A DNA stretch of 23,163 bases. It comes from a virus. Below are positions 394-22,356 of the stretch, in pieces. The translations under genes were made by a program, and so were the position numbers. The notes under the pieces are model-generated. The model did no database searches. It was not told the origin of the DNA and saw only the letters and a program-made list of their open reading frames with translations. Location of the stretch: the IMG/VR virus record IMGVR_UViG_3300044845_000184, positions 1-23,163 of that record, one strand, 5' to 3'. Position 1 is the first letter of the stretch. Every line of letters begins with the position of its first letter.

Positions 394-702
394 TTATTCC
401 GCTGAAACGATTTTTTCGTATACTCTGTACGCTTTCGAGTACTCAAGCCCCCACAATGGCCCATGCTGCTGCGTGTTTTCCCACTCTATCCAGCTTGCGG
501 CATGGGCGATTTCGTGGATTAGCGTGTCAAGCTGCTCTTGCTCCGTGAGACTCGAAGAGATGCGAATTGCGAAGTGATCCGGCATCCGCTTGCAGTAGCC
601 GCAAACCTTGCTTGATACGCGGCACCTACGCACCGAGATAGAGAGCGTAGAGTGCTCCGCTTTGAGTGCGTCACGCAGTTCGCAAAACAGGTCTTTGCCC
701 AT
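394..702 (-). CDS. SprT-like zinc metallopeptidase
   Basis: The product has 102 residues, shorter than bacterial SprT (about 165). The zinc-binding HEIAH is at 63-67 and a third ligand is His80 in HGPLWG, the SprT/gluzincin-like arrangement HExxH...H. A CxxC (Cys34, Cys37) with Cys27 lies before the active site (RCRVSSKVCGYCK) and may be a small metal site. The start ATG 702 follows the phosphoesterase stop by four bases. Small proteins of this type are common in phages with no known substrate. A noncoding stretch follows the stop. Confidence 0.75.
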   Translation of the reverse strand: MGKDLFCELRDALKAEHSTLSISVRRCRVSSKVCGYCKRMPDHFAIRISSSLTEQEQLDTLIHEIAHAASWIEWENTQQHGPLWGLEYSKAYRVYEKIVSAE

Positions 703-706
703 TTTG

Positions 707-1579
707 TCACTTCGCCCGCATGTGATCGAAAAGCACTCGTTCTGCCTTGCCGTCCCAATAGAATCGCAGCCAATGCGAACCTAAAGACTTCGGGCCTAGC
801 ATCCGCTCAACTTCCCAGCCGTGATCGCCATCGCCCCAAGCGTCTTTGTACCCTGGGCACCTGATGTGTAACTGTTCATCGTGGTACACGTTGCCATGTA
901 TGCTCAATCGCTGCCTTGGTATCGTTAGCGACCACTCGTCGTGAGTGTGGCCCGTCAACACAATTTCGGGGTCTGGCGTCATGACCGCGATTCGGTTGGT
1001 TTGGATCGTGCCCCGCGTTACCGGCCCGCCTCCGCCAGTACCGTGAAAGTGATACAGCGTCACGGAGTCCTTGGCACTTCGGCTACCTTCGCCGACTCTA
1101 AAGCGGAAGATAACCCATCCGCCGTATCCGCTAGCTTCTGTGATGCCGCTATGGGCACGCAATCGCCCCGCTAACCTATCCGTCAAGTCGGTTTCGTGCG
1201 CCTTGGTGATCGCTGTTTCGTGGTTGCCGCGTCCCATCACCGCGAATATATCTTTGTAGGGCTTGTAGTATTCGTAGGCCGTATCGACTAGCAAGTCGAA
1301 GTAGTTGCTACCTTGATGCTCTGGCCTCAATGCTGACTTGTCCGCTCGCTTGTCCCATCGCCCCTGCATCGCACAAAATAGATCGCCGTTGTCGATGACC
1401 GGAGCATTAACGGCGAGTGCTTCGTCGAGGTGTTTACGCTCGAGAGTTTGATCGCACTTTGGGTTATCGTGGTGGACGTCGCTTCGCAGCAATACCCATT
1501 GCTCCCAGTCTTTATTTTTCGTCAACTCGCAATTGATCTCGATTACATTGCGTTGTAGTTTGTTGAGTCTCCACGCCAT
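707..1579 (-). CDS. calcineurin-like metallophosphoesterase
   Basis: The product has 290 residues. I chose ATG 1579 because GGAGG lies seven bases upstream; GTG 1582 adds one residue. The full two-metal signature is seen: Asp34/His36 (LLRSDVHHDN), Asp66 (VIDNGDLF), Asn119-His120 (GRGNHE), His177 (TLYHFHGTGGGG) and His211/His213 (VLTGHTHDEW). Family members cleave phosphomonoesters, phosphodiesters or nucleic acids, and the substrate here cannot be read from the sequence. It lies at the end of the late operon, just before a metallopeptidase gene, and has no signal peptide. Confidence 0.85.
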   Translation of the reverse strand: MAWRLNKLQRNVIEINCELTKNKDWEQWVLLRSDVHHDNPKCDQTLERKHLDEALAVNAPVIDNGDLFCAMQGRWDKRADKSALRPEHQGSNYFDLLVDTAYEYYKPYKDIFAVMGRGNHETAITKAHETDLTDRLAGRLRAHSGITEASGYGGWVIFRFRVGEGSRSAKDSVTLYHFHGTGGGGPVTRGTIQTNRIAVMTPDPEIVLTGHTHDEWSLTIPRQRLSIHGNVYHDEQLHIRCPGYKDAWGDGDHGWEVERMLGPKSLGSHWLRFYWDGKAERVLFDHMRAK

Positions 1580-1943
1580 CACTCCGCCTCCAAATTGCTA
1601 ACGCTTCTTCGACGGTCAACTCGGTTTTGCCGAGCTTGCGATTAACCCAGTTGTGTAGATTGTAGCCCCAAAGCCAATAGGCCGCCGGCGATGAGAAGTC
1701 GGGCGGGTTTGCGGCTTTGTATTGATCGTAATTTGCCCGACAAGAACACCCGTAACGCGGAATGGTCGATTCCCATTCAATGTGCCACTGCGGATCGGAA
1801 CCGCTGTATTCGTGCAACACTTTCCAGGGGTTTACCTTCGGCGTGTATACAGTGCCGAGGAATGTCCTAGTAACCTTCTGTGGCCTTGGTTGCTCGCCTG
1901 TGTCCGTGAATTCGTATCCGTCCCAAGTGTCTCTAGGAAACAT
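1512..1943 (-). CDS. Erv/ALR-like protein (possible sulfhydryl oxidase)
   Basis: The product has 143 residues from ATG 1943, coupled to the stop of the cysteine-rich gene; a longer frame to 1982 would overlap it. Residues 64-118 match the Erv1/ALR pattern: a cysteine pair in RYGCSCRANYDQY, then NPPDFSSPAAYWLWGYNLHN, and HNWVNRKLGK, followed by an EEALAIW helix. The HN..VN..L.K segment is the FAD-binding signature of that family. However the active-site pair is CxC (Cys66, Cys68) rather than CxxC, and the N-terminal half is unlike Erv1. It could be an active oxidase for its neighbour or a structural relic. Its last 68 nt overlap the next gene. Confidence 0.55.
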   Translation of the reverse strand: MFPRDTWDGYEFTDTGEQPRPQKVTRTFLGTVYTPKVNPWKVLHEYSGSDPQWHIEWESTIPRYGCSCRANYDQYKAANPPDFSSPAAYWLWGYNLHNWVNRKLGKTELTVEEALAIWRRSDGVETQQTTTQCNRDQLRVDEK

Positions 1944-3403
1944 TATGCAAGTCCAACCGTAACTGACGGAAGCGAAACGCAAGTATTGCCGACCGTGTTA
2001 TTCGTCCGTGTTGTTACGCAAGAAAGATTGCTAAACTTATAACCGCAAACAGGGCCTAGAAGCGGACATTGAGTAGTTGACACACCGCCATTAATAAGCA
2101 GTTCGGAACAGCAATCGCCTGATTGGCAAAGACCGGGCAGAGGCGGCATCGGCCCCCCAAAGCAGTCGTTAAACGCAGTGTTTCTGCAATCACCCAGAGG
2201 GTTTATGTCGCACTCGTTAACATACGCTGTTCCGCACATTGTTGACCATGTGTACAAAGGCGTTCCTAACTCATCGAATCCGCGAAGTCTTCCTATCCTA
2301 TCAATGCCAACACCTATGGTGTTACAAAACCTGCTGATCTTTAGGTAGCATGGGCTTCCTTCTTGGTAGACATTGTTGGCGAAAGATCCCGGCTGCTCGT
2401 AACCGTTCTCTATGACCTCAAAGCACTTAAACTGACCCGTCGAAGAATCGAAATAGATAGGCTCTGGAGTAGTCGCAACTGACTGCCCGACAATCTGCAA
2501 TGTGCATGGTATCAAGCGGAAGAACCCGAGTCCGCCTGGCTCCATCGGCCAAGTAGGGATTGGCGGCAAACAATTTGTTCCAGGCGACAATCCGCAATTG
2601 TAGTTTAATACTGTGCAACCTGTTTTTCCATCGCAGCATGAGAACGGCGAGTCGTCGCTTTCTGTGATAGTCACATCCCCTATATCTGGCAAGGTGTCGT
2701 ACAGTTTCATCCTGCTAAAAGACACAGTCGTCGGCCCCCCAATGAACGATAAGTCTTCCTCGTCGTGTTCCCCGCAATCATCGCTGTTCACTCCTGACTG
2801 ATCGACCCATGAATTAGAGACCGAGCAGTTGTCGACCTCATAATCGCCTGTGCATGTTGTTGTTCCTGTCGAACTTAATTGAACCCGCGAAAGTTCTTCG
2901 TTGATCTCAAACTCCCACGATGCAGCGACGTAGTATTTGCAAGCAGACTCGGTTTCCCCACTGCAAAGAACTCGCACCTTTCCTACAGATATACTGATCG
3001 CTTTAAGCCTTCTTGATTGACGAAAAAACAACCTTGCCGCAGACTGAACAGAAACGTTCCTTGTCTGAACCGCAATACAATCGCAGTCGAATTGCGTATC
3101 TGGCGGGTAGTTTCCAGGGGGAACAAACAGGACTTTCGATCTGTATAGAGTTGCGTCAAATGAAAAATCAGCAGTCTGCTTTGCGTACAGGCTGCACGTT
3201 ATATTAGTCCAAGGCTCACAAGGAAACTCGAACCGTGCTTTATAACAGCACGACTCTCGCACGAACTCCGCGACCGGATCCTCTTCGCTAGGCTCTTCTC
3301 CCTCGCAAGTCGTCGCGTTAGGCAGTTTAAGAGTTGCCGTTGTGTACGGCATCTCTCCAGGTTCTAGGCAACAATCGCAACAACACCGCCCGAATCCACC
3401 CAT
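1943..3403 (-). CDS. cysteine-rich virion protein
   Basis: The 486-residue protein carries 37 cysteines by my count, about one in thirteen. They include an N-terminal cluster GRCCCDCCLEPGEM, then pairs such as FDCDC, SCCDGKTGC and SGDCC, and a C-terminal set TQCPLLGPVCGYKFSNLSC. The rest is beta-rich (RVQLSSTGTTTCTGDYEV, FIGGPTTVSFSRMKLYDTLP). A strong GGAGG lies eight bases before the ATG. Spacing of many cysteines is not that of a simple zinc finger, and it suggests disulfide-bonded or metal-bound lobes in a tail-tip protein. It is directly upstream of an Erv/ALR-like gene (TAATG overlap). Lambda gpL, an iron-sulfur tail-tip protein, is a distant functional analogy only. Confidence 0.65.
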   Translation of the reverse strand: MGGFGRCCCDCCLEPGEMPYTTATLKLPNATTCEGEEPSEEDPVAEFVRESCCYKARFEFPCEPWTNITCSLYAKQTADFSFDATLYRSKVLFVPPGNYPPDTQFDCDCIAVQTRNVSVQSAARLFFRQSRRLKAISISVGKVRVLCSGETESACKYYVAASWEFEINEELSRVQLSSTGTTTCTGDYEVDNCSVSNSWVDQSGVNSDDCGEHDEEDLSFIGGPTTVSFSRMKLYDTLPDIGDVTITESDDSPFSCCDGKTGCTVLNYNCGLSPGTNCLPPIPTWPMEPGGLGFFRLIPCTLQIVGQSVATTPEPIYFDSSTGQFKCFEVIENGYEQPGSFANNVYQEGSPCYLKISRFCNTIGVGIDRIGRLRGFDELGTPLYTWSTMCGTAYVNECDINPLGDCRNTAFNDCFGGPMPPLPGLCQSGDCCSELLINGGVSTTQCPLLGPVCGYKFSNLSCVTTRTNNTVGNTCVSLPSVTVGLA

Positions 3404-5630: not shown

Positions 5631-7013
5631 CTAGACTCCTGGGCTTTGGAATTCGATGATGGTTGTCGGTGGTTGCAGCTTGTCCTTTAGTGCGGTGATC
5701 GCTTCGGTGACCTTGTCGAGCTTACCCACCGTTGCGAGCGTGTTAGCTTCGATCTTCTTTTGCGAGTCGTCAGCCTTGCCCCTGCTAAGCAACCGCGATT
5801 CCTTCGCTGCTAGATCAGGGGTGCTTATCGTCGCTTTCATTTCCTTCTTTTTGGCGGCTTCTGCGAACTGTGCTTTAGCTGCCGCGATTGCTAACGCGGT
5901 GTCCTTGTCGAGTCCTTGCTGCTGGAGCCTGAATGCTTCTGCGGCTTGCTCACCTTGCTCCAAAAGGATCTTCTGTTCTTCGAGTCGCTGCAATTCACTC
6001 TTGCCTAAATCCGCGATTCTCTGCAATCGGGATTTCTCTTCGTCTTGCGCCTTCTTCTTCGCCGCGTCGGCGTCTTGCTCTGCCTTTAGCAACTTCTCGG
6101 CGAACATGATTCGCTTGATGTCAGCATCGCCTAGCCCCTGATCTTGGAGTTGTGCCCGTCGTGCTTCTTCGGCACTCTTCGTTAGTGCGATGTACTGGTA
6201 GTTAACGTTGCGAAGCGTCGATATAGTTGACTGATCGATCTGTGCTTTCTTCGCCGCTGCCGCGTCTTCTGCGGCTTGCTGCTCTTTAATCAATCGCACT
6301 TGCTGAGCATGGGCACTGTATTTTTCGCCGAGCTGGTTCTGTTGCTCACGAAGCGATTGGGCTACCTTCATGTAGCCGTCCGCCTGGTTTCTCAAGTCGG
6401 CAATAACCTCAGGCCCTTGCTTGCTCTTCGTTGCCTTTTCCGCTTGTTGGCTGTAATACTGAAACGATGCTATCGCGTCATCAACTTCTTTCCCGATGGA
6501 CTTGAAGAGTTCAACCGCTGCCTGTTGCTGCTTGTCAGGATCACGGATTAACGTTAGGTCTTCCATCTGGTCGCCGACTTTAATCGACGCCATCTTGACC
6601 ATATGAGACGCAAACCTGTCAGCCTCTTTTGCCGCGTCTTCCATCCGTCCCGCTAAGTCGTCGACTCCGAAGATAGCCTCGCCTATCGTCTTGCCGAGTT
6701 GAAACGCCATAACGCCAACTAGAGCCGCAATGCCTCCCTTAAAAGCCATCGCACCCGCGCCACCCAGTTTCATCACTTCCGAGAACTGGCCGATCTTCTC
6801 GGTGATACCAGCAACACCTTGAGCCGCTGCCGCAAACTCAGTGCCGCCTAGTTGACCGGCCAAGACTCCGATGAATTCCGTTGACGCTTTAGCCTTCGCA
6901 CCGACTTCCTTAACGCCGCTTACTGCGTTCTCAATGTTCTTTGCTGCGTAGACCGCTTTTGCGCTCGCTTGGTCTTCGGCCTGGATCAGGATTTTTACGG
7001 CGTCACCGGCCAT
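5631..7013 (-). CDS. tape measure protein
   Basis: The product has 460 residues. It is almost wholly helical, with a glycine/alanine-rich hydrophobic segment at about 82-116 (LGGAGAMAFKGGIAALVGVM) and long Gln/Lys/Glu/Ala coiled-coil regions (about 130-430, such as AEDAAAAKKAQIDQST and EEQKILLEQGEQAAEAFRLQ). The end is IIEFQSPGV. Position after the G/GT pair, overlapping by one base (TAATG), is that of lambda gpH. At about 0.15 nm per helical residue it would specify a tail near 69 nm, short for a siphophage. No peptidase or lysozyme domain is seen inside it. Confidence 0.85.
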   Translation of the reverse strand: MAGDAVKILIQAEDQASAKAVYAAKNIENAVSGVKEVGAKAKASTEFIGVLAGQLGGTEFAAAAQGVAGITEKIGQFSEVMKLGGAGAMAFKGGIAALVGVMAFQLGKTIGEAIFGVDDLAGRMEDAAKEADRFASHMVKMASIKVGDQMEDLTLIRDPDKQQQAAVELFKSIGKEVDDAIASFQYYSQQAEKATKSKQGPEVIADLRNQADGYMKVAQSLREQQNQLGEKYSAHAQQVRLIKEQQAAEDAAAAKKAQIDQSTISTLRNVNYQYIALTKSAEEARRAQLQDQGLGDADIKRIMFAEKLLKAEQDADAAKKKAQDEEKSRLQRIADLGKSELQRLEEQKILLEQGEQAAEAFRLQQQGLDKDTALAIAAAKAQFAEAAKKKEMKATISTPDLAAKESRLLSRGKADDSQKKIEANTLATVGKLDKVTEAITALKDKLQPPTTIIEFQSPGV

Positions 7014-7333
7014 TACTCGCTCTCCGCTTTGATCCTGTTTTCTTCGTACTTCAAAATCCGCACCGCGTCAACAAAGGATGCTGATTGATCGAGACTGCCA
7101 CCCGCTACAGGCGGCAATCCCTCGTTGAACAAATCAGCCATCGAAACAAACTGGCCGATACTATCACAGTATCGATTCGGGCATCCTTTCAAAATCCAAC
7201 TTCCGTTCGTGCATTCTTCGCATCCTGTTCCGTTGCACGCCGGGCATTCAATCTCGATAGGCTCCGCGTCTGTTCCTTCGTCTTCGCACTTCTTGTCGCT
7301 GCATCGTCGGCAAAGTTCACCCTGCCGAATCAA
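7013..7333 (-). CDS. gpT-like extension of tail chaperone, zinc-binding
   Basis: This frame gives 106 residues if begun at TTG 7333, but it is more likely made as the C-terminal part of a G-T fusion by -1 frameshift at 7351-7357; AAGGG eight bases before TTG leaves separate initiation possible. It has several cysteine pairs: ELCRRC..KKC, then ECPACNGTGCEEC like a DnaJ zinc finger, and GCPNRYC. The C-terminal helix is FVDAVRILKYEENRIKAESE. In lambda the T domain recruits tail tube subunits to the tape measure. A zinc finger in this part is unlike lambda. Its TAA overlaps the ATG of the tape measure gene. Confidence 0.7.
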   Translation of the reverse strand: MIRQGELCRRCSDKKCEDEGTDAEPIEIECPACNGTGCEECTNGSWILKGCPNRYCDSIGQFVSMADLFNEGLPPVAGGSLDQSASFVDAVRILKYEENRIKAESE

Positions 7334-10883: not shown

Positions 10884-13493
10884 TTAGGTGCGATTACCGA
10901 AGATGCCGCGATGATCGATCACCGCACAACCGAAGGTCTGACGAACCTTGTAGAGGTAAACGTCTCGACTCATATCCCAGTCGTTCTCAAGAACCGGTGC
11001 TTCTTCGCCACTCAAGAACGAGAGTTCCATCGTGTCGACTTGAGCATTGTCGGCGATTGCATACCAGTTAGTTGTGCTGTTCGCATCTAGCAACGCGGTA
11101 GCAACAACTTGCAAAGGTCGTACGCCGTTAACTCCGTAGATGTTTACTACGCCTTCGTTGCCGTTGCTTTGTGCGTAGGATTGGCTATTAACCAACTCCA
11201 ACGCATTGGCCGCATAGTTCTGAGGAACTAGCAAAACTCTTGGCGAAAGGTTGAGGATTGACCCGTTAAGGCCAGTCTGCAGACTCATATAGCGGAACGC
11301 TTCGTTGAGCGTTGTCACGCTTGGTGCCGCTGGAGTCGTATTGGTGATGTTACGTCCGCTTGTATGAGAAGCAGAGAACAACGCGAAACCATCAGGCATC
11401 GTTGGGTTGCTCAAGAATGTGTCGTAAACAACTCGCTCTTGAGTGCGTCGAGCAGCTTGCCCTTGCATCGATGGGATGCGAGAGAGTGCATCGAGATCGT
11501 CATTGATGACGGTTTCCCAAGTGACTGAGAATTCCGCACCGAATTTGTCAACCTTGTACGACTTCTTCTGATCGCTCAGCCCCTTCTCTGGGTACGCCTT
11601 GCCTTCAGGAACCATTTCCAAGTTTGGATACTCGGAGAGTTGAACGCGATTGATTGCTTTAAAATCATCCACGCTGGCCGCTTGGCGAACCCACAAAGCC
11701 CAAGTGAATGGGGCTTCGTCGTAAGCCGCTCGGAGAGTCTTGTTGACCGCATCCGAGAGGATGTTCTGAAACGATCCGGTCGTGTGGTACGCATCGGATC
11801 GGCGTACCTTGAGACGATTGAACGTCCCAGCGTGACCCATCGCCATTCGTGCTACGTCGCCCTTGGTGTGCTTCAATGGGTCGATGCCCATTCGACGTAC
11901 GCATTCTTCGGCAAGTCGGTACAGTCCGACATTGCGAAACTCAGCATCGCCTTGGGCAGTCGGTGCCTTGGTGCGTTGGATGTTCCCTTGGAAGCAACGT
12001 TGAACCAAGCCAGCCTTAGCGGCTTGTTCAAACTTATCGTGTTCCGATTCGGTGACGGTGACGCTGCTGCCGATTGGTTGATTAGCCATCTGTCGAATAA
12101 TCCTTTGCTGAGCGTCTTCCAGTGAACAACCGGAGTCAACCAACTCGTCAGCAAAGGTACGCTCAACCTTCGCTAGTTTGGCCGCTGCGTAAATCGATTT
12201 CTTTCGCTCGTCGATTGCTTTCAGTTGTCTAGCAACTTCGCTTTCGACTTTGTCTTCGCTGCGAACCGCTTCGGGCTCCTTGGGCATTTCGTGTTCTGCC
12301 CTAGTCGCTTCTTCGGTTGGCTTGTCCATGCCTTCCATCAACTCAACTTCGAGTTCTGGTTTCGCCATGTGATCGGCCATCCACTTGATGATCTCGTTTG
12401 GATCGGTCATACCTTCGGGTAGACCAAGAGACGAGAGTTGAGCCATCAATTGCTCATCCATGCCTTCCTGCCTTTCTGCTTGGTCGTAAGACCGTCTGAC
12501 CGTGGAATTAGGATCTGCACCCGTTGCACAGATACTCGCGTTGTGAGGCTCCCAAGCGGTAACAATCTCCGCTGGCCCTTCAACGATGACGCCACGTTTC
12601 GTCGTGTATGCTTGCCCCTCAGGGATGTAGATGCGATTGAGGATTACCGCATCAATGCTAAAGTCGTTTAGATGCCCCTCTTGGTATCGAGTTGCCACGA
12701 CCTGGCTCTCTGGATCGGAGGCGAATGAAGGATCGCCAATCAACTCGCCATCTTCGATTTCGATATTGCGAATTGATCCGAAGACGTTCCGAACTGTTCT
12801 ATCGTTGTGCGAGTCGACGATAGGCAGTTGATTCTTTGAGTTGCGGAACTGGACGCCGTCCATCAGTAACACTTGGCGAACCATGCGACCGCGTTGTTCG
12901 TCGTAGATTTCAATCGGAGTCTCGGTTGCAATGACTGCTCGACCGTCTTTAGGTGCTGCGAATGCTCGCTGAATCTTTGGGACTGCTGCGATACGCTCGA
13001 CTTTATCTGCTGCTTGCATTTGTCGTTGCACCTTTTCGCTCCAAGTTTTTCCAGCGTCTCCGCCCCATAACGCCCACGCAATCCGACCGGCTGAGGGAAA
13101 GCCCTTTTGGCTTGGCTTCCATCCTTCGCCTTGCTTGTCCACTTCGTGCCTTGCGAAGTAACTGACCATGCGTCCGATAGTATCTGGACTCATCGCCTTG
13201 CCGTTGCTCAAGTCCCTGGCCCTTGCAACACCAACCGGAGTTCCTCCGCGATTGTGTTCGCGTCTCCACTCAAGGCCCTGCTCAGCCTCTTCGCGTACGC
13301 CCTCAGGTGGAGTAAAGTCAATGTCGTCGTACTTCGCTCGTTCGATCTCTTCCGATGCGTACAATGCCGCGACCTGATCGCTGGCCGCATCTTCTGAAGC
13401 ATGGCAACCCATTAACTGGGCGGTATCGTCTTTCACGACACCCCAGGGACGCGATATTGGGCAAGCCTTGGTTTGCTTCGTTCTATAGGGCAT
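10884..13493 (-). CDS. prohead protease / scaffold / major capsid fusion protein
   Basis: One uninterrupted frame of 869 residues from ATG 13493, which has GAGG six bases upstream (TTG 13499 is less likely). Part 1 (about 68-160) is a small domain with GTPVGVARARDLSNG and FPSAGRIAWALWGGD that I recognise from other phage proteins. Part 2 (about 180-330) is an S78-type prohead protease with His229 in VDSHNDRTV and Ser279 in LNDFSIDAV, plus the typical AWEPHNASICATGADPN segment. Part 3 (about 335-500) is acidic and helical, like a scaffold. Part 4 (about 520-869) is a major capsid domain like Mu gpT: EGKAYPEKG, TWETVINDDLDALSRIP, MPDGFALFSASH, LSPRVLLVPQ. Self-cleavage should release the capsid subunit. 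A terminator-like hairpin follows. Confidence 0.9.
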   Translation of the reverse strand: MPYRTKQTKACPISRPWGVVKDDTAQLMGCHASEDAASDQVAALYASEEIERAKYDDIDFTPPEGVREEAEQGLEWRREHNRGGTPVGVARARDLSNGKAMSPDTIGRMVSYFARHEVDKQGEGWKPSQKGFPSAGRIAWALWGGDAGKTWSEKVQRQMQAADKVERIAAVPKIQRAFAAPKDGRAVIATETPIEIYDEQRGRMVRQVLLMDGVQFRNSKNQLPIVDSHNDRTVRNVFGSIRNIEIEDGELIGDPSFASDPESQVVATRYQEGHLNDFSIDAVILNRIYIPEGQAYTTKRGVIVEGPAEIVTAWEPHNASICATGADPNSTVRRSYDQAERQEGMDEQLMAQLSSLGLPEGMTDPNEIIKWMADHMAKPELEVELMEGMDKPTEEATRAEHEMPKEPEAVRSEDKVESEVARQLKAIDERKKSIYAAAKLAKVERTFADELVDSGCSLEDAQQRIIRQMANQPIGSSVTVTESEHDKFEQAAKAGLVQRCFQGNIQRTKAPTAQGDAEFRNVGLYRLAEECVRRMGIDPLKHTKGDVARMAMGHAGTFNRLKVRRSDAYHTTGSFQNILSDAVNKTLRAAYDEAPFTWALWVRQAASVDDFKAINRVQLSEYPNLEMVPEGKAYPEKGLSDQKKSYKVDKFGAEFSVTWETVINDDLDALSRIPSMQGQAARRTQERVVYDTFLSNPTMPDGFALFSASHTSGRNITNTTPAAPSVTTLNEAFRYMSLQTGLNGSILNLSPRVLLVPQNYAANALELVNSQSYAQSNGNEGVVNIYGVNGVRPLQVVATALLDANSTTNWYAIADNAQVDTMELSFLSGEEAPVLENDWDMSRDVYLYKVRQTFGCAVIDHRGIFGNRT

Positions 13494-15069
13494 TAGCAAC
13501 CTCGCTTACAACCTCTTGCGTCTGAGGCGATGGAGTAGCCGACTGAGCTGCACTGATTGCCAGTTGCTGTTCTTGTGGGGTGAGCAACCCAAGTTTCTTC
13601 TTCAGGTCTTGCTCTTTTTTGCGTTGATAGAACACCGCTCGCCATGATCGACCACGGGAACCGAGTTCCGTTTGGTAGTCGCTCATGAACGAATCGATTG
13701 CATCTTTTGCCGACGCCTGTTCGGTCTGAGGATCCACCCATTCCCATTCAGGGGTCTGCCACTCGACCGGGCTTGCTTTGCGTCGATCTGACAGCAAGTC
13801 GATCGGAGTTGGAAAACCTCGAATTCCGCTGATCGATGCCGCATCGAAGAACGCGTCCCAAGTCGGCTGGAGCATGTGCCGAATCAAGTATTGCTGCCAA
13901 CAGCGAAACCGCCTTCGGTCTTCGAGTTGACTCGTACGGCTCGAACTGTAGGACGTCTGCGAATAGTCGCGGGCTACGGTCTCGTAAGACAATCCCGTGC
14001 CCACCGCAATCTGCCGAAGGATTAAAGCAATCCAAGGCTCCGCACCCGTAGACGGTCGCCCTGGGTTGATACCCTCGACGCTTTCGCCTGGGTTAAGCTC
14101 CATCACCATGCCCGGCTCAATGTATCGCTGTTTGTTGCCCGCCGAGTCTACAGGGCTTCCGCCGTCTGGATCCGCTAGATCACCCAGAGGAGTTTCGGTT
14201 TTAATGGCGACCGTGAAGCATGAAGCAACCGCCGATGCTTGTAGTTCGTTGTCGAGGTACGTACCCAAGTCACGAATAGCCGCGACGACTGGAGCGAACC
14301 ACGAAACGCCCCGCGTCTGACCCACTCGCTCCCGGCGGAATAGGTGCATGATTTCTGACGCAGGAACTCGCTCAGGCTCTCGAGTGTAGGAGTATGGTTG
14401 CAAAGGATGATCAGGATAGATCCAATAAGCAACCGGCCTGCCTGTGTCGTCTACCTCAACACCGCGAATGATGCGGTTTTCTCCGTTGGCCGTAAGCCGC
14501 GATGCGTAGTTGTCTTTGTCACCCGCCAAGCGGTCTGCTTCGATGATCTCCAACGCCAATGGCACTGGGCGATAGATACCGCGATAGACCGGCCCTGGCG
14601 TGCGAATCTTTCGGATGAGGACTTCACCAGCCTCAACAACTTCGCGTTGTGCGATGGACTGGATTTCCTCTAAGGTGTATTGCCCGTTGATGTCGCAGAC
14701 TTCGCACCATTCCGACCAAACGCTATCACGCCGGTCGTTTACCTCTTCGATATCATCGCCTGCAGGAGTCTCGAAGACAGATTGTGCCTTAATGCCGCAT
14801 CCGACAACGGATGAGACAATCGTATCGACAACGCCCCATGCGTAGGCATTGTTGCGGACAAGCTCCCTTGACCACGCCCTAAGCCGATCCGCTCCAAACG
14901 GGCCAAGTAACTCGGTGTCCGCTGGCTGATTCTTCGGCGTGCGTCCGCTCGACACTCTCGAAGGCTCTGCACCTAGATAGGATCGCAATACCTTACGGGC
15001 TTGCATTCGTCGCAATGCTCGAAGCGGGCTTACTGCCTCAATCGCTTTGTCGATAAGTCGAGTAATCAT
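13483..15069 (-). CDS. portal protein, lambda gpB type
   Basis: The 528-residue product matches the lambda gpB portal family (533 residues in lambda) in length and motifs. There is a basic start (RALRRMQARKVLRSYLGAEP), then the family hallmark RNNAYAWGVVDTIVSSVVG at about 72-90, an acidic linker, wing-domain strands with VVEAGEVLIRKI, the segment EIMHLFRRERVGQTRGVSWF, and the SYETVARDYSQTSYSSSRTS region. A Gln-rich C-terminal tail (about 490-528) is probably disordered. Twelve copies form the DNA channel at the head vertex, where terminase docks. The gene starts in an ATGA overlap with the gpW-like gene, and its stop overlaps the capsid gene start. Confidence 0.92.
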   Translation of the reverse strand: MITRLIDKAIEAVSPLRALRRMQARKVLRSYLGAEPSRVSSGRTPKNQPADTELLGPFGADRLRAWSRELVRNNAYAWGVVDTIVSSVVGCGIKAQSVFETPAGDDIEEVNDRRDSVWSEWCEVCDINGQYTLEEIQSIAQREVVEAGEVLIRKIRTPGPVYRGIYRPVPLALEIIEADRLAGDKDNYASRLTANGENRIIRGVEVDDTGRPVAYWIYPDHPLQPYSYTREPERVPASEIMHLFRRERVGQTRGVSWFAPVVAAIRDLGTYLDNELQASAVASCFTVAIKTETPLGDLADPDGGSPVDSAGNKQRYIEPGMVMELNPGESVEGINPGRPSTGAEPWIALILRQIAVGTGLSYETVARDYSQTSYSSSRTSQLEDRRRFRCWQQYLIRHMLQPTWDAFFDAASISGIRGFPTPIDLLSDRRKASPVEWQTPEWEWVDPQTEQASAKDAIDSFMSDYQTELGSRGRSWRAVFYQRKKEQDLKKKLGLLTPQEQQLAISAAQSATPSPQTQEVVSEVANAL

Positions 15070-15689: not shown

Positions 15690-17900
15690 TTAACCCCTTC
15701 GCTTTGGTATCCATCCGCCTTGCCGAGTCTTAAAGTTACCATGCTGATAACGCTTCGGCTGTGGCTTTGGTTGTGACTGATTCTGATCGCCGCTTACCGT
15801 CTTGGGCTGAATCTCGACTTCTGACGGTGCTATTAGTTTAACACCGCAAGCCTCGCCTGCTGCCGCTGCCATGTAAGTCGCGTCTAGCCAGTGGTTGTTT
15901 GTGTCCTTGACGCTCCAATACGTCTTTGCTCCCTTGCCCTCGGTAAACTTCGTGACTAGCTCTTCCGCTGCAATGTGCTGTGCGTATTGGCTATGCCGCT
16001 GGTTCTCATCGAGGGAGAAGAGTGAGAGTGATCCACGCCGAATCATGTTGGACTCGTCGAAGGTCGGAGTCATAAATCGCTCATGGACAAACTGCTTCCA
16101 ATACGAGGTATCAAGTTCGTACAGCCATAGATTACCGTTTGGGAGTTTCGATGCGTGCAAGTTGTCACCCGCGATGCAGGTTGTTGTAGACTTGGTTTTT
16201 CGATGATACGGGAACTGCCCTTTTGAAGCGTGAAAGATACCGCCGACTTCGCGGACAAACTTATACGGTGCATTCGTGAAAGCACCCGAATCGACGAAGC
16301 AGAAGTCGACCGCCCGTCGCGTACCTGTTGCGTCAACAAACTCACGACTGAGTAATTCGTCACGCCAGTTTAGCAACGCGTCGTAGATCATAGGCTCGGA
16401 TGCTTCGTGATCCATGCTCTTATCTGTCCCGTAGACTTGAGCAATACCATAATCCACGACGACACCGCCCGCTCCGTGCCACCAAGCCGTTACAACCCAA
16501 TGGCAATTGTACTTGCCTAAGTCAATTGCCGCCGTAAGTGCAGCCGTGTTAGCGGGTAGTTGTCTTCGTGCGAATCCCGACAGACGCGACTCGACGAGGG
16601 CTGGAGTGATCCCAAGCCCCATTGGCCCCGCTTCCTCTGGTGGGTCGTTATCGATCTCGGTCGATACCGCTCTCGCTCCAACGTCCGCTACGCGATTGTA
16701 GTAGCTTTGCACCGCCGATAGCTCCATCGGCTCGCCGTCAGCGTGCGTCTTGCGACTGAATGAGCATTGATTAGAGACAACCGACCCACGTTCAATCTCT
16801 TCCTTGTTGTCACGCCAAAACGCAAATGCTTCCCGTGCGTCTGGGTCTTCGTTCTTGCGTCCGCGTCTTAGGTCGATGTACTTCTCGACCAAGTCGAGAC
16901 GGTCAGGTGCCTTGACTAGCTTTCGATACCGCTTGCCTCTCCAAGATGGTTTCCGCTTCGGGTCTGTGTACGTGTACGCGATGCACTTTCGATTCTGAAT
17001 CGTGCAAAGCATAACGCGGGGTATTCGCTCCGATGACTGACCTAGACCTGCAATGTCCTGTTCGATGATGTCGGTATTCTTTGCGACTTGTGCTTCACTT
17101 GCTGCCGCGTCTCTATCCTCGATGTCGTCGATGATCGCAAGGGTAGGCCGCTGGCTTCGGTACTTAGTACCTCGGATCGCTCCGTCGATGCCGAGAGAGT
17201 AAAGCACCTGCCCATTCGACGCGGGCTTGATCTCCTTAGGCCATCCTGGTAACTGGTCAATATGGATTGATGGGAAGACAAAGAACTCTGGGCCGATGAC
17301 GATGTTGGTTGATCGCCCGCCAACGGTCTGCATCCTTCCGCGACTTGACCAAGCCCCGACGGCTTGAAACGGGATGCCGATCTCTGGATAGTCCTCGATG
17401 AACACTTCGTTTTGCTGAAGTTGCTCGACGACGTCACGGACTTCCTTCTTCGCCTTGTCAGCATTCTTACCGATGACAACTGGGAAATGAGACAAGCCGC
17501 GAACCATCAGGAACAACGCGGTAAGAATGGCAAGCGTAGTTTTTCCCTCGCCTCTAGGCCCTGCTATCGCCTGGTCACCGCCATAGCAAGCCGCGTCAAT
17601 GATCGACTTGACCATCGCTAGCCGGTCTTCAGTCCAAGCCTCAAAGAACTTGTCGGAGAAGTACGTTGACAGCCACAAAGAGCAATCAGCCTCGCATCGA
17701 AGACGACGCGAAGGATCGGAGGGAGGTGGGATGATTAGGTCACGTTCTGCTGCTCGCTTCTTCCGCATCAACTCACGTTGCCTCATCCGTTCGTCGCCCT
17801 TGATCGGATCTGCCGACGATGCCGTTTTCGGATGCAATGCGAGCAAGTTCTGCAACTGGGACAGACTGAGCGACTGCAAGAAGTCTGAGTCTAAGTTCAT
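15690..17900 (-). CDS. terminase large subunit, GpA-like
   Basis: This is the DNA-packaging motor of 736 residues. The ATPase domain carries a Walker A motif at about 113-122 (AGPRGEGKTT) and a Walker B-like TLAIIDDIED at 253-262. The C-terminal RNase H-like nuclease carries Asp460 (AAIDLGKYN), Asp537 (FCFVDSGAF) and Asp673 (NHWLDATYMAAAAG), in the arrangement of lambda gpA-type terminases. A basic tail ends KRYQHGNFKTRQGG...PKRRG. The start is uncertain: ATG 17900 has AAGGA only two bases upstream, while ATG 17786 (Met39) has AAGGG ten bases upstream and leaves only a 14-nt overlap with the preceding gene. The stop TAA is one base before the ATG of the zinc-ribbon gene. Confidence 0.92.
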   Translation of the reverse strand: MNLDSDFLQSLSLSQLQNLLALHPKTASSADPIKGDERMRQRELMRKKRAAERDLIIPPPSDPSRRLRCEADCSLWLSTYFSDKFFEAWTEDRLAMVKSIIDAACYGGDQAIAGPRGEGKTTLAILTALFLMVRGLSHFPVVIGKNADKAKKEVRDVVEQLQQNEVFIEDYPEIGIPFQAVGAWSSRGRMQTVGGRSTNIVIGPEFFVFPSIHIDQLPGWPKEIKPASNGQVLYSLGIDGAIRGTKYRSQRPTLAIIDDIEDRDAAASEAQVAKNTDIIEQDIAGLGQSSERIPRVMLCTIQNRKCIAYTYTDPKRKPSWRGKRYRKLVKAPDRLDLVEKYIDLRRGRKNEDPDAREAFAFWRDNKEEIERGSVVSNQCSFSRKTHADGEPMELSAVQSYYNRVADVGARAVSTEIDNDPPEEAGPMGLGITPALVESRLSGFARRQLPANTAALTAAIDLGKYNCHWVVTAWWHGAGGVVVDYGIAQVYGTDKSMDHEASEPMIYDALLNWRDELLSREFVDATGTRRAVDFCFVDSGAFTNAPYKFVREVGGIFHASKGQFPYHRKTKSTTTCIAGDNLHASKLPNGNLWLYELDTSYWKQFVHERFMTPTFDESNMIRRGSLSLFSLDENQRHSQYAQHIAAEELVTKFTEGKGAKTYWSVKDTNNHWLDATYMAAAAGEACGVKLIAPSEVEIQPKTVSGDQNQSQPKPQPKRYQHGNFKTRQGGWIPKRRG

Positions 17901-19745: not shown

Positions 19746-20410
19746 TATCCGTCGTATCCTCCGCTAAATGCGTTTGGTAGCATCAATCCGCCACCGCCAC
19801 CACTTACGCCGTACACCGGCGACTCCACCAGAGACAGAACGAATGTCCGCCATGCTGCCGAGTTAGTTACCGATACGTTTGTGCTGGCCCAGATTGTCGT
19901 GCGTGATAACTGGTAATCGAGTCTCGTCTGCCAAGTCGAACCATCCGTTGCCGACTGTGCTAGCGTCATGCCAGTTGGACTTGATAACGTATTAGCCGAG
20001 TTTCGATTTGCAACCCAGCCGACTAACGCTTGGTCGCTTGCGTTCGTCTGAAAAGTGTTCGCCGTTTGCGATAGGTAGTTGATCGTCGTACTGGTCGCAT
20101 TGTTGGAGCTAATATAGTTCGGGAAAATCAACGTGTTCGGATCGCCTCTCCACACTGACGCAAATATCTGCGTTGCGTTTGTCCATGTGCCGCTAGTCTC
20201 TGCGTTGCTTTGTGCGTGCTTGTAAGCAATCGCCAGCGAACCGACCGACTGCGACAAACTAACCCGCGTAATCCAACCGCTAGGGATTGTTGGCACTGTC
20301 GCTGAGTTGTCGCGGTATGCAAAAAACAGCAATAGATCGCCTGCTGCGTGACTTGGCATTGTTATCGTCGTCGAGTTTGCTGTATCGCTACCTTGTAGGG
20401 CAATTGTCAC
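19745..20410 (-). CDS. virion protein, probable fibre or tail-tip component
   Basis: The product has 221 residues from GTG 20410, with GGAG eight bases upstream. It is rich in Thr, Ser and Asn with alternating hydrophobic residues, as in beta-sandwich virion proteins. The opening (IALQGSDTANSTTITMPSHA) and the repeated 'S/T-W' strands look like a jelly-roll fold. It ends in a glycine-rich tip (VSGGGGGLMLPNAFSGG), a form often seen at the exposed end of phage adhesins. Its stop overlaps the ATG of the long fibre gene. It is probably part of a receptor-binding complex with that protein; this is inference from composition and position. Confidence 0.55.
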   Translation of the reverse strand: MTIALQGSDTANSTTITMPSHAAGDLLLFFAYRDNSATVPTIPSGWITRVSLSQSVGSLAIAYKHAQSNAETSGTWTNATQIFASVWRGDPNTLIFPNYISSNNATSTTINYLSQTANTFQTNASDQALVGWVANRNSANTLSSPTGMTLAQSATDGSTWQTRLDYQLSRTTIWASTNVSVTNSAAWRTFVLSLVESPVYGVSGGGGGLMLPNAFSGGYDG

Positions 20411-20904: not shown

Positions 20905-21110
20905 TATGCACCCCTCAATAATTTGCCGATTTCCGTCTGGAGCGTTTCAATTTTGGCCCAAAGCCTTTCGCGGTCGCTTCGGCATTCTTGGAGGTCTGCC
21001 CGTGTTGTTTTCTTTTCCTCGACGAAGAAGCGAAACAAGATGGCTATCGCTGTAGATTGCACGCCGACGATACCTGATCCGATGATGTAGATTAATGATT
21101 CCTGAGTCAT
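20904..21110 (-). CDS. holin-like small membrane protein
   Basis: The product has 68 residues, starts in an ATGA overlap with the thioredoxin-like gene, and has GGAG eight bases upstream. It has one hydrophobic segment at about residues 6-29 (IYIIGSGIVGVQSTAIAILF) followed by a charged coiled-coil region (EEKKTTRADLQECRSDRERL). This N-terminal span plus cytosolic coiled-coil layout resembles many phage holins and holin-associated proteins. The stop overlaps the ATG of the next gene. The assignment to holin rests on size, topology and position only. Confidence 0.55.
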   Translation of the reverse strand: MTQESLIYIIGSGIVGVQSTAIAILFRFFVEEKKTTRADLQECRSDRERLWAKIETLQTEIGKLLRGA

Positions 21111-21541
21111 TTCGCCAACTCCGTTGCAAGTCGCTCTAGTGTCATATAGCCGCTAATCTCGACGTTCTTATCGCCATCCGTAATGATGAAGTGAGGCACC
21201 CGCTTAACGTCATCGGGATTGCCATACGCGAAAGTATAACCAGCATCTGCAAACTTCGCTTGCTCGCATCGCTTCCACCGTTCGCAAGGCTCGCACCATT
21301 CCGCCGAGAATATGACGATCTCACGCTTGATCGCTTTAGGCTTGTCGCTTGGTGAAGGAGTCGGATCGATTGCAACTTGAGTCTCAATCAGCGTTTTTGC
21401 GGCTTGCTCAAGTTTGCTAATCAACTCACTCGAACTCGGTGCAATGTCGCACTGTGTCGGATCGACTACCACTGGAGTCTGTGACCAAAACAACAACGCA
21501 AAAAACAATAGCACCATCATCAAACCTCCTTGTTTGTTCAT
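21107..21541 (-). CDS. membrane-anchored thioredoxin-like protein
   Basis: The product has 144 residues if started at ATG 21541, in an ATGA overlap with the peptidase stop and with GAGG about eight bases upstream. A longer frame from 21565 is possible. Residues 5-20 are a hydrophobic signal or anchor (GLMMVLLFFALLFW). A low-complexity linker rich in Pro and Ser (about 58-68) leads into a thioredoxin-like domain with the active site WCEPC (Cys83, Cys86) and the cis-proline loop RVPHFII (Pro116). A further Cys92 follows the active site. The topology puts the redox domain outside the cytoplasm. It could reduce or isomerise disulfides there, perhaps for its peptidase neighbour or for Cys-rich virion proteins; this is inference. 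Confidence 0.8.
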   Translation of the reverse strand: MNKQGGLMMVLLFFALLFWSQTPVVVDPTQCDIAPSSSELISKLEQAAKTLIETQVAIDPTPSPSDKPKAIKREIVIFSAEWCEPCERWKRCEQAKFADAGYTFAYGNPDDVKRVPHFIITDGDKNVEISGYMTLERLATELAK

Positions 21542-22356
21542 CCTAGCGGCCTCGACTGTAGCCACGATACGCTACGCGGCCCCGGTAGGCTCAAGTCACT
21601 TATGCCGACAATCGACGTGTACTGATGCCGACACAACGCATCGATTACCGAAGGGGCAATTTCTGTCCAAGAATCGTTATGGCTGTTGAGTCTCCAGATG
21701 TAATTGCGGCCCTTGCTGTCTTTACGTCTGGAGTAGCCGAGCCACGCTGTAGCGTGACCGCCGCCACCGCGTAGACTGATCGATTCTAAGACACCGCTGG
21801 ATGCGTAGAAACTGTCGTTCCATGTAGTCCCCGTATGCACCGCACCGCTGCCACTCGCAAGGTACTTATAAATGTCGTCGTAACTCTCAAGCCACGTATG
21901 CGAACGGATGCGATAAGGCGAAGCCTCAAGTCTCATTTGATCGGTAATCAGGCTTCGAGCGTTGTTCGGATACGGCGTTCGATACGGCAAGGCTGATTCG
22001 AGTAAATAGCCGATCTCCTTCGCAACTCTCAAGCCGCCGCTAATCGTCGAACCCGCATCGCGTCCGAGTAACCCATCGATTCGCTGTGACTCAAGGTAGG
22101 CAAACAATTGCGAAAACTGCCGCGATTCGCTTACCGCTCCGTGCCCTAAGGCCAAAAGATACTCGCCGCAATTCGTCAGCGAAAAACCTTGGCAACTTCC
22201 CATGCTGCCCTGCTTGTCGTGCCTCATCAGTTTTCGCGGATCAATCTCTTCCGGTGCGGCGAAGTCACGAATCGCAAACGGCATCGAAACCGAACCGCTT
22301 TGCAATTCGTCGCGTCGCTCTAGCGTTGGATCGTAGCCGGTGAAAAACTCGCTCAC
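21538..22356 (-). CDS. papain-like (C1A family) cysteine peptidase
   Basis: The predicted 272-residue protein has the papain catalytic set in order: oxyanion Gln49 and catalytic Cys55 in QGSMGSCQGFS, His201 in GGGGHATAWLGY, and Asn224 in WRLNSHNDSW. A typical mid-domain GYLLESALPY segment lies at about 115-125. No signal peptide and no inhibitory propeptide of normal length are evident (about 48 residues precede the Gln). I chose GTG 22356 because GGAGG lies eight bases before it; GTG 22371 adds five residues but has no ribosome site. The gene sits among small membrane proteins where lambda-like phages carry lysis genes, so an endolysin-type or virion-maturation peptidase is plausible. The fold assignment is strong and the substrate is unknown. 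Confidence 0.85.
   Translation of the reverse strand: MSEFFTGYDPTLERRDELQSGSVSMPFAIRDFAAPEEIDPRKLMRHDKQGSMGSCQGFSLTNCGEYLLALGHGAVSESRQFSQLFAYLESQRIDGLLGRDAGSTISGGLRVAKEIGYLLESALPYRTPYPNNARSLITDQMRLEASPYRIRSHTWLESYDDIYKYLASGSGAVHTGTTWNDSFYASSGVLESISLRGGGGHATAWLGYSRRKDSKGRNYIWRLNSHNDSWTEIAPSVIDALCRHQYTSIVGISDLSLPGPRSVSWLQSRPLG

Follow-up and report, generated by a model that had tools for sequence, protein, structure and literature searches.

Bacteria are thought to form structural disulfides mainly outside the cytoplasm. Erv enzymes are familiar from eukaryotic viruses, with related members described in NCLDVs, poxviruses and baculoviruses. Their molecular signature is the FAD-proximal CxxC disulfide, and the poxvirus enzyme works in virion morphogenesis (PMC10598087). 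In vaccinia virus, E10R, A2.5L and G4L constitute a cytoplasmic disulfide pathway (PMC1318495). The shuttle disulfides of Erv enzymes can be of the CxC type, and the shuttle pair is missing from many viral members, i.e. it is optional (PMC3509050). A redox-active CxC also has a precedent in Mia40, for which PMC4019985 gives CPC. Among phages, lambda gpL and its homologues hold an oxygen-sensitive [4Fe-4S] cluster on four cysteines in the tail tip (PMC10721106), and the tail structural proteins of Agrobacterium phage Milano are held by many disulfides (PMC10811340). Here we describe a locus in which a gene for a cysteine-rich protein and a gene for an Erv/ALR relative lie end to end, an arrangement suggesting that some phages see to the disulfide bonds of their virions themselves, during assembly in the bacterial cell.

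Genomic context

The window, that is the whole stretch of DNA analysed, is the 23,163 nt of IMG/VR record IMGVR_UViG_3300044845_000184, a tailed-phage genome or fragment. Its late operon lies on the minus strand, begins with small membrane proteins and proceeds in the order terminase, portal, capsid, tail (Table 1). The cysteine-rich and Erv-like genes are located behind the tape measure and a few more tail genes, the place that distal-tail and adhesion genes occupy in siphophages. This position agrees with the initial annotation, made from the sequence alone, which had called the cysteine-rich protein late. Relatives of the portal and capsid proteins were at most 35% identical and gave no pointer to the host. 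The gene directly preceding the tape measure, at the usual place of a tail-assembly chaperone, encodes a 106-aa protein (7013-7333, minus strand) with 9 cysteines in CxxC-type motifs, resembling a DnaJ zinc finger. At the position of the phosphoesterase-like gene, two unlike phosphoesterase types alternate among relatives.

Table 1. Features of the window, with nucleotide positions and the basis of each assignment.
Feature	Position	Strand	Basis or remark
SprT-like metallopeptidase	394-702	-	Pfam above cut-off; operon end
Phosphoesterase/exonuclease-like gene	707-1582		between SprT-like and Erv-like genes
Erv/ALR-like protein, 143 aa	1512-1943	-	Pfam, PDB profile, AlphaFold, Foldseek
HNxVNxxLxK signature, residues 97-106 (HNWVNRKLGK)	1626-1655	-	aligned with ALR HNEVNRKLGK
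CxC dithiol, Cys66-Ser67-Cys68 (GCSC)	1740-1748	-	at FAD-proximal CxxC place of Erv/ALR
W40..xH44, first helix	1812-1826	-	profile-aligned with WAxLH of ALR
TAATG stop/start overlap of cysteine-rich and Erv-like genes	1941-1945	-	sequence
Cysteine-rich protein, 486 aa, 37 Cys	1943-3403	-	ORF, cysteine count, homologues, AlphaFold
Protein in tape-measure position, 460 aa	5631-7013	-	
Fused protease/capsid protein	10884-13499	-	followed by neck and tail proteins
Lambda-type portal	13483-15069	-	
Terminase	15690-17900	-	
Thioredoxin-like protein, N-terminal membrane anchor, WCEPC	21107-21565	-	PHROG 22 thioredoxin, E=0.0014; possible third member

An Erv/ALR-like protein with a CxC dithiol

The downstream gene had been proposed to encode an Erv/ALR-like protein, and profile and fold searches both bear this out. 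Its product matches Pfam Evr1_Alr (PF04777) with E=6.5e-8 (33.3 bits against a gathering cut-off of 27.6), and its relatives at loci L120 and L124 score 42-43 bits. Searched alone against the PDB, it reaches human ALR at 5.8e-5; when 41 relatives are combined into a profile, human ALR is matched at E=1.9e-13 over all helices, including the W..LH of the first. Helices are predicted at residues 39-45, 51-58, 68-78, 86-104 and 111-121, and AlphaFold, run as a single chain here and for the cysteine-rich protein, gives a five-helix core with core pLDDT mostly 91-96. When this model was compared with the PDB by Foldseek, ranks 1-24 were all Erv/ALR (probability at least 0.96). African swine fever virus (ASFV) pB119L was the best match, and the top matches also included ALR, Erv2 and Erv1 at a probability of about 1. 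The E-values of the Erv/ALR matches, for a short protein with disordered tails, are just 0.007-0.17 though the probabilities are near 1.

The FAD-site residues of Erv/ALR, W..xH and HNxVNxxLxK, are present and aligned to ALR. The signature had been written as HN..VN..L.K; the motif stands, with the correction that one residue, not two, separates HN from VN. That it is spurious is ruled out by the Pfam, PDB profile and Foldseek matches. Among 41 aligned sequences, down to 20% identity, W40, H44, C66, C68, G93, H97, N98, N101 and L104 are invariant, and this alignment contains no conserved second (shuttle) cysteine pair. Between helices alpha1 and alpha2, ALR has about 10 residues more. Judged by sequence profile and predicted fold, the product is a true Erv/ALR homologue, one that would bind FAD and act as an oxidase.

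A closer inspection of the active site, using contigs found with the Erv-like protein in which both genes were readable (95 loci, 94 viral and one on a bacterial MAG contig; the phage relatives are all metagenomic, from uncultured phages), revealed a feature absent from the initial annotation. At the FAD-proximal site, CxC rather than CxxC occurs in 95/95 loci, as CSC, CDC, CTC, CQC, CGC, CMC, CLC, CRC, CAC or CPC. Locus L102 escaped the CxC pattern, reads CDC and is counted among the 95. The phage protein thus does not carry the FAD-proximal CxxC of Erv/ALR (PF04777). Because CxC replaces the defining CxxC in all 95 loci, the protein is not filed as a classical member; its sequence and model mark it as a homologue that has the Erv/ALR fold but a variant dithiol. 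To our knowledge, there is no known case of CxC spacing at this site. The change makes an oxidase mechanism less sure, yet is compatible with it.

In the distant loci L119, L120, L122 and L124 the Erv-like domain carries a C-terminal fusion. Two types of fused domain occur, about 220-270 aa long. One type has an FVDAD stretch and is glycosyltransferase-like in look, with no convincing family match. Neither Pfam nor PHROGs gave an identity for these domains, nor did the PDB for that of L120. The Erv-like protein of L124 (5740-6987) also begins with a zinc-ribbon-like CEHC...CLC segment.

The cysteine-rich partner

The count of 37 cysteines in 486 residues, reported earlier, was confirmed on the ORF. 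Cysteine makes up 7.6% of this protein against a mean of 1.2% for the other proteins of the window (binomial P about 1e-18); this value and the comparison of 95 loci exclude chance enrichment. Homologues and analogues carry 25-55 cysteines, and in L139 and L124 the gene has about double the length. The protein is predicted to be all-beta, with long strands of 15-38 residues (66-90, 109-146, 154-172 and 175-189), and the AlphaFold model has a pLDDT of 79 and a pTM of 0.74. A fold search with this model returned no known fold; pore-forming hairpin proteins reached a TM of only about 0.1-0.15 and were left uninterpreted. Pfam returned no match to the protein, and PHROGs returned none that was significant. 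The N-terminus of the L124 cysteine-rich protein matches window positions 19748-20410 over only 17 residues, from which we do not claim homology. A tail-tip or adhesion component is probable, and the protein would then reside in the virion at the tip of the tail.

Exclusive pairing of the two genes

The TAATG overlap noted previously is present: the TAA of the cysteine-rich gene shares one base with the ATG of the Erv-like gene. Among the 95 loci the overlap is one base in 28 and four bases in 18. A gene for a protein with 25-55 cysteines lies immediately upstream of the Erv-like gene in all 95, usually overlapping or a few bases apart. At every locus this neighbour has the highest cysteine fraction of the same-strand ORFs of at least 200 aa (median 8.0% against 1.0%). 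Where it is missing, the contig itself begins within the Erv gene or directly ahead of it (L067, L121). In the reverse direction, searches with the cysteine-rich proteins found the Erv-like gene downstream in 31/31 loci with enough downstream DNA, although the two contig sets overlap and are two views of one phage group. Wherever the DNA is long enough (95/95, 31/31), neither gene was seen alone, as the initial annotation had led one to expect.

The partners themselves are not all related. Identity between the Erv genes is 87% for L058 and L059 and about 80% for L087 and L095, whereas within each pair of loci the cysteine-rich proteins have no BLAST similarity to each other; further unrelated partners occur in L119, L124 and L139. 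Because near-identical Erv genes adjoin dissimilar cysteine-rich proteins, the conserved property of the partner is its cysteine content. An enzyme acting on cysteines accounts for unrelated partners; position alone or recognition of one fold does not. The cysteine-rich protein would be the substrate of the Erv-like enzyme.

Strict pairing is also compatible with an Erv-like protein that, with its CxC, is redox-dead and serves as a chaperone or assembly factor holding the cysteine-rich protein, whose disulfides would form spontaneously after lysis. The departure from CxxC in every member and the shortened alpha1-alpha2 region point the same way. However, both cysteines together with the W, H, HN and N of the FAD signature are invariant to 20% identity, which a scaffold would not need, and mutually unrelated partners that share only cysteine-richness suit chemistry better than shape recognition. 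We therefore regard a redox-dead chaperone as unlikely and favour an active oxidase.

The pair is found in at least two tail-gene architectures. Since it stays in place in L010-L013, L018 and L019 while the upstream tail genes are replaced, there by a set of proteins of about 297 aa and about 109 aa, it is suggested to travel as a cassette. An oddity of a single lineage is ruled out by the 95 contigs, these architectures and the several cysteine-rich types. Acquisition of a host bacterial gene by the phage was also considered: among 84,980 genomes scanned with patterns, one distant locus only came up (L124, from a Flavobacteriaceae MAG), and Evr1_Alr was absent from 295 other genomes of its phylum, the one phylum sampled, both of which oppose such an origin.

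Disulfides or metal sites

In pairs of cysteine-rich proteins that are 30-70% identical, 94% of cysteines are retained against 55% for the next residue. Of the simple changes in cysteine among close relatives, two involve cysteines in twos, as a gain (L054 to L057) and as a loss (L060 and L062); another is a compensated shift, and only one is single. Though the events are few, such change in pairs favours disulfides over four-ligand metal sites as the fate of these cysteines. Since most of the cysteine totals are odd, it is likely that one cysteine stays free or bonds between molecules.

The cysteines might instead bind metal, be it zinc or an iron-sulfur cluster like that of lambda gpL, with the Erv-like protein managing thiols during metal loading. 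The cluster of gpL, on four cysteines in a tail tip (PMC10721106), offers a model for this, as does the N-terminal CCCDCC of the window protein, which is invariant at four cysteines. Against it, these proteins have 25-55 cysteines rather than 4, and the window protein has a single histidine in 486 residues and few CxxC motifs. Moreover, cysteines change in twos and not in sets of four, metal-binding families gave no match, and an oxidase would counteract thiolate metal sites. Metal binding is thus very improbable, and the cysteines would rather form disulfides.

A thioredoxin-like protein in the same operon

A possible third component is encoded early in the late operon. Its Pfam Thioredoxin_2 score is below the cut-off. 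Homologues were found in 16/29 virus records of the family, rising to 13/17 among those of at least 33 kb, and CxPC is kept in all 12 that were read; four long, distant records had no match. The protein may take part in disulfide formation. If its orientation is N-in, however, the thioredoxin-like domain would face the periplasm and not the cytoplasm, which counts against a cytoplasmic role.

The presence of this membrane-anchored protein in the same phages also fits a role at infection, with the Erv-like protein in the virion or host envelope rearranging tail-tip disulfides then and not during assembly. Disulfides of phage Milano must indeed break for contraction (PMC10811340). However, the Erv-like protein has no apparent signal peptide, nothing supports its presence in the virion, and the poxvirus Erv-type enzyme acts in morphogenesis (PMC10598087). 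Such an infection-stage role has very little likelihood, and action during assembly is preferred.

A proposed oxidative-folding module

Taken together, the two genes probably make up an oxidative-folding module that a siphovirus-like phage dedicates to a distal-tail protein. This supports the initial annotation, which had suggested that the phage brings a disulfide-forming enzyme for a disulfide-stabilised tail tip. The product of the upstream gene would be a structural component of the distal tail, all-beta and rich in cysteine. The downstream gene, coupled to it in translation, would provide a thiol oxidase of the Erv/ALR fold, small and compact, that binds FAD. The CxC disulfide would receive electrons from the cysteines of the partner and pass them via FAD, presumably to oxygen. 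Disulfides could thereby form in the reducing bacterial cytoplasm while virions assemble, and the membrane-anchored CxPC protein may shuttle or isomerise them.

If true, the module would explain how virions gain covalent tail tips and would provide an Erv active site in which nature has replaced CxxC by CxC. It might also give a compact tool with which to produce disulfide proteins in the bacterial cytoplasm. Because the pairing is strict although the partners are unrelated in sequence, the idea is directly testable.

Comparison with known systems

Neither protein has relatives in 50,697 phage records (INPHARED) or a convincing match in PHROGs, and literature searches, which reached few subscription papers, found no phage Erv enzyme described. 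The impression recorded earlier, that no phage disulfide module of this type had been described, therefore holds for the sources searched.

With Erv1/ALR oxidases (PF04777; ASFV pB119L, human ALR) the phage protein has in common the sequence profile, the helical-bundle fold, W..xH and HNxVNxxLxK. It differs in its CxC, in a helix 1-2 span shorter by about 10 residues and in its occurrence in tailed phages, where its gene is coupled to a single cysteine-rich one. Compact NCLDV Erv enzymes such as Mimivirus R596 are likewise small viral domains, some with fused extra domains and many without a shuttle disulfide. However, R596 retains the CxxC active site (PMC3509050), and the domains fused in distant phage members are unrelated.

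Phage Milano resembles the present phages in having tail structural proteins rich in disulfides, which here would follow from the gene content. Milano is contractile and its structural proteins are about 2% cysteine, whereas here one protein, mostly of 6-10% cysteine, comes with its own enzyme gene; the words oxidase, oxidoreductase and thioredoxin are all absent from the Milano paper (PMC10811340). Lambda gpL, a siphophage tail-tip protein, shares conserved cysteines and a gene position after the tape measure, but has four cysteines and a cluster where the window protein has 37 cysteines, and the latter had no sequence or fold match to this iron-sulfur class.

The vaccinia E10R-A2.5L-G4L pathway likewise involves a virus-encoded Erv-type enzyme expressed late, and the phage also has a thioredoxin-like protein; no counterpart of A2.5L was seen in the phage. 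In vaccinia the viral enzymes make the disulfides of structural proteins, for which the phage genes point to a counterpart. The phage system differs in belonging to a bacterial DNA phage, in its one dedicated cysteine-rich partner and in a thioredoxin-like link that is putative. On balance, we lean towards the view that a pathway for disulfide formation, the first known from a bacteriophage, is encoded here. In it an Erv-fold CxC oxidase would act on a disulfide-dense tail protein in a reducing cytoplasm, possibly with a thioredoxin-like carrier, and it would have evolved in parallel with its counterparts in poxviruses and NCLDVs.
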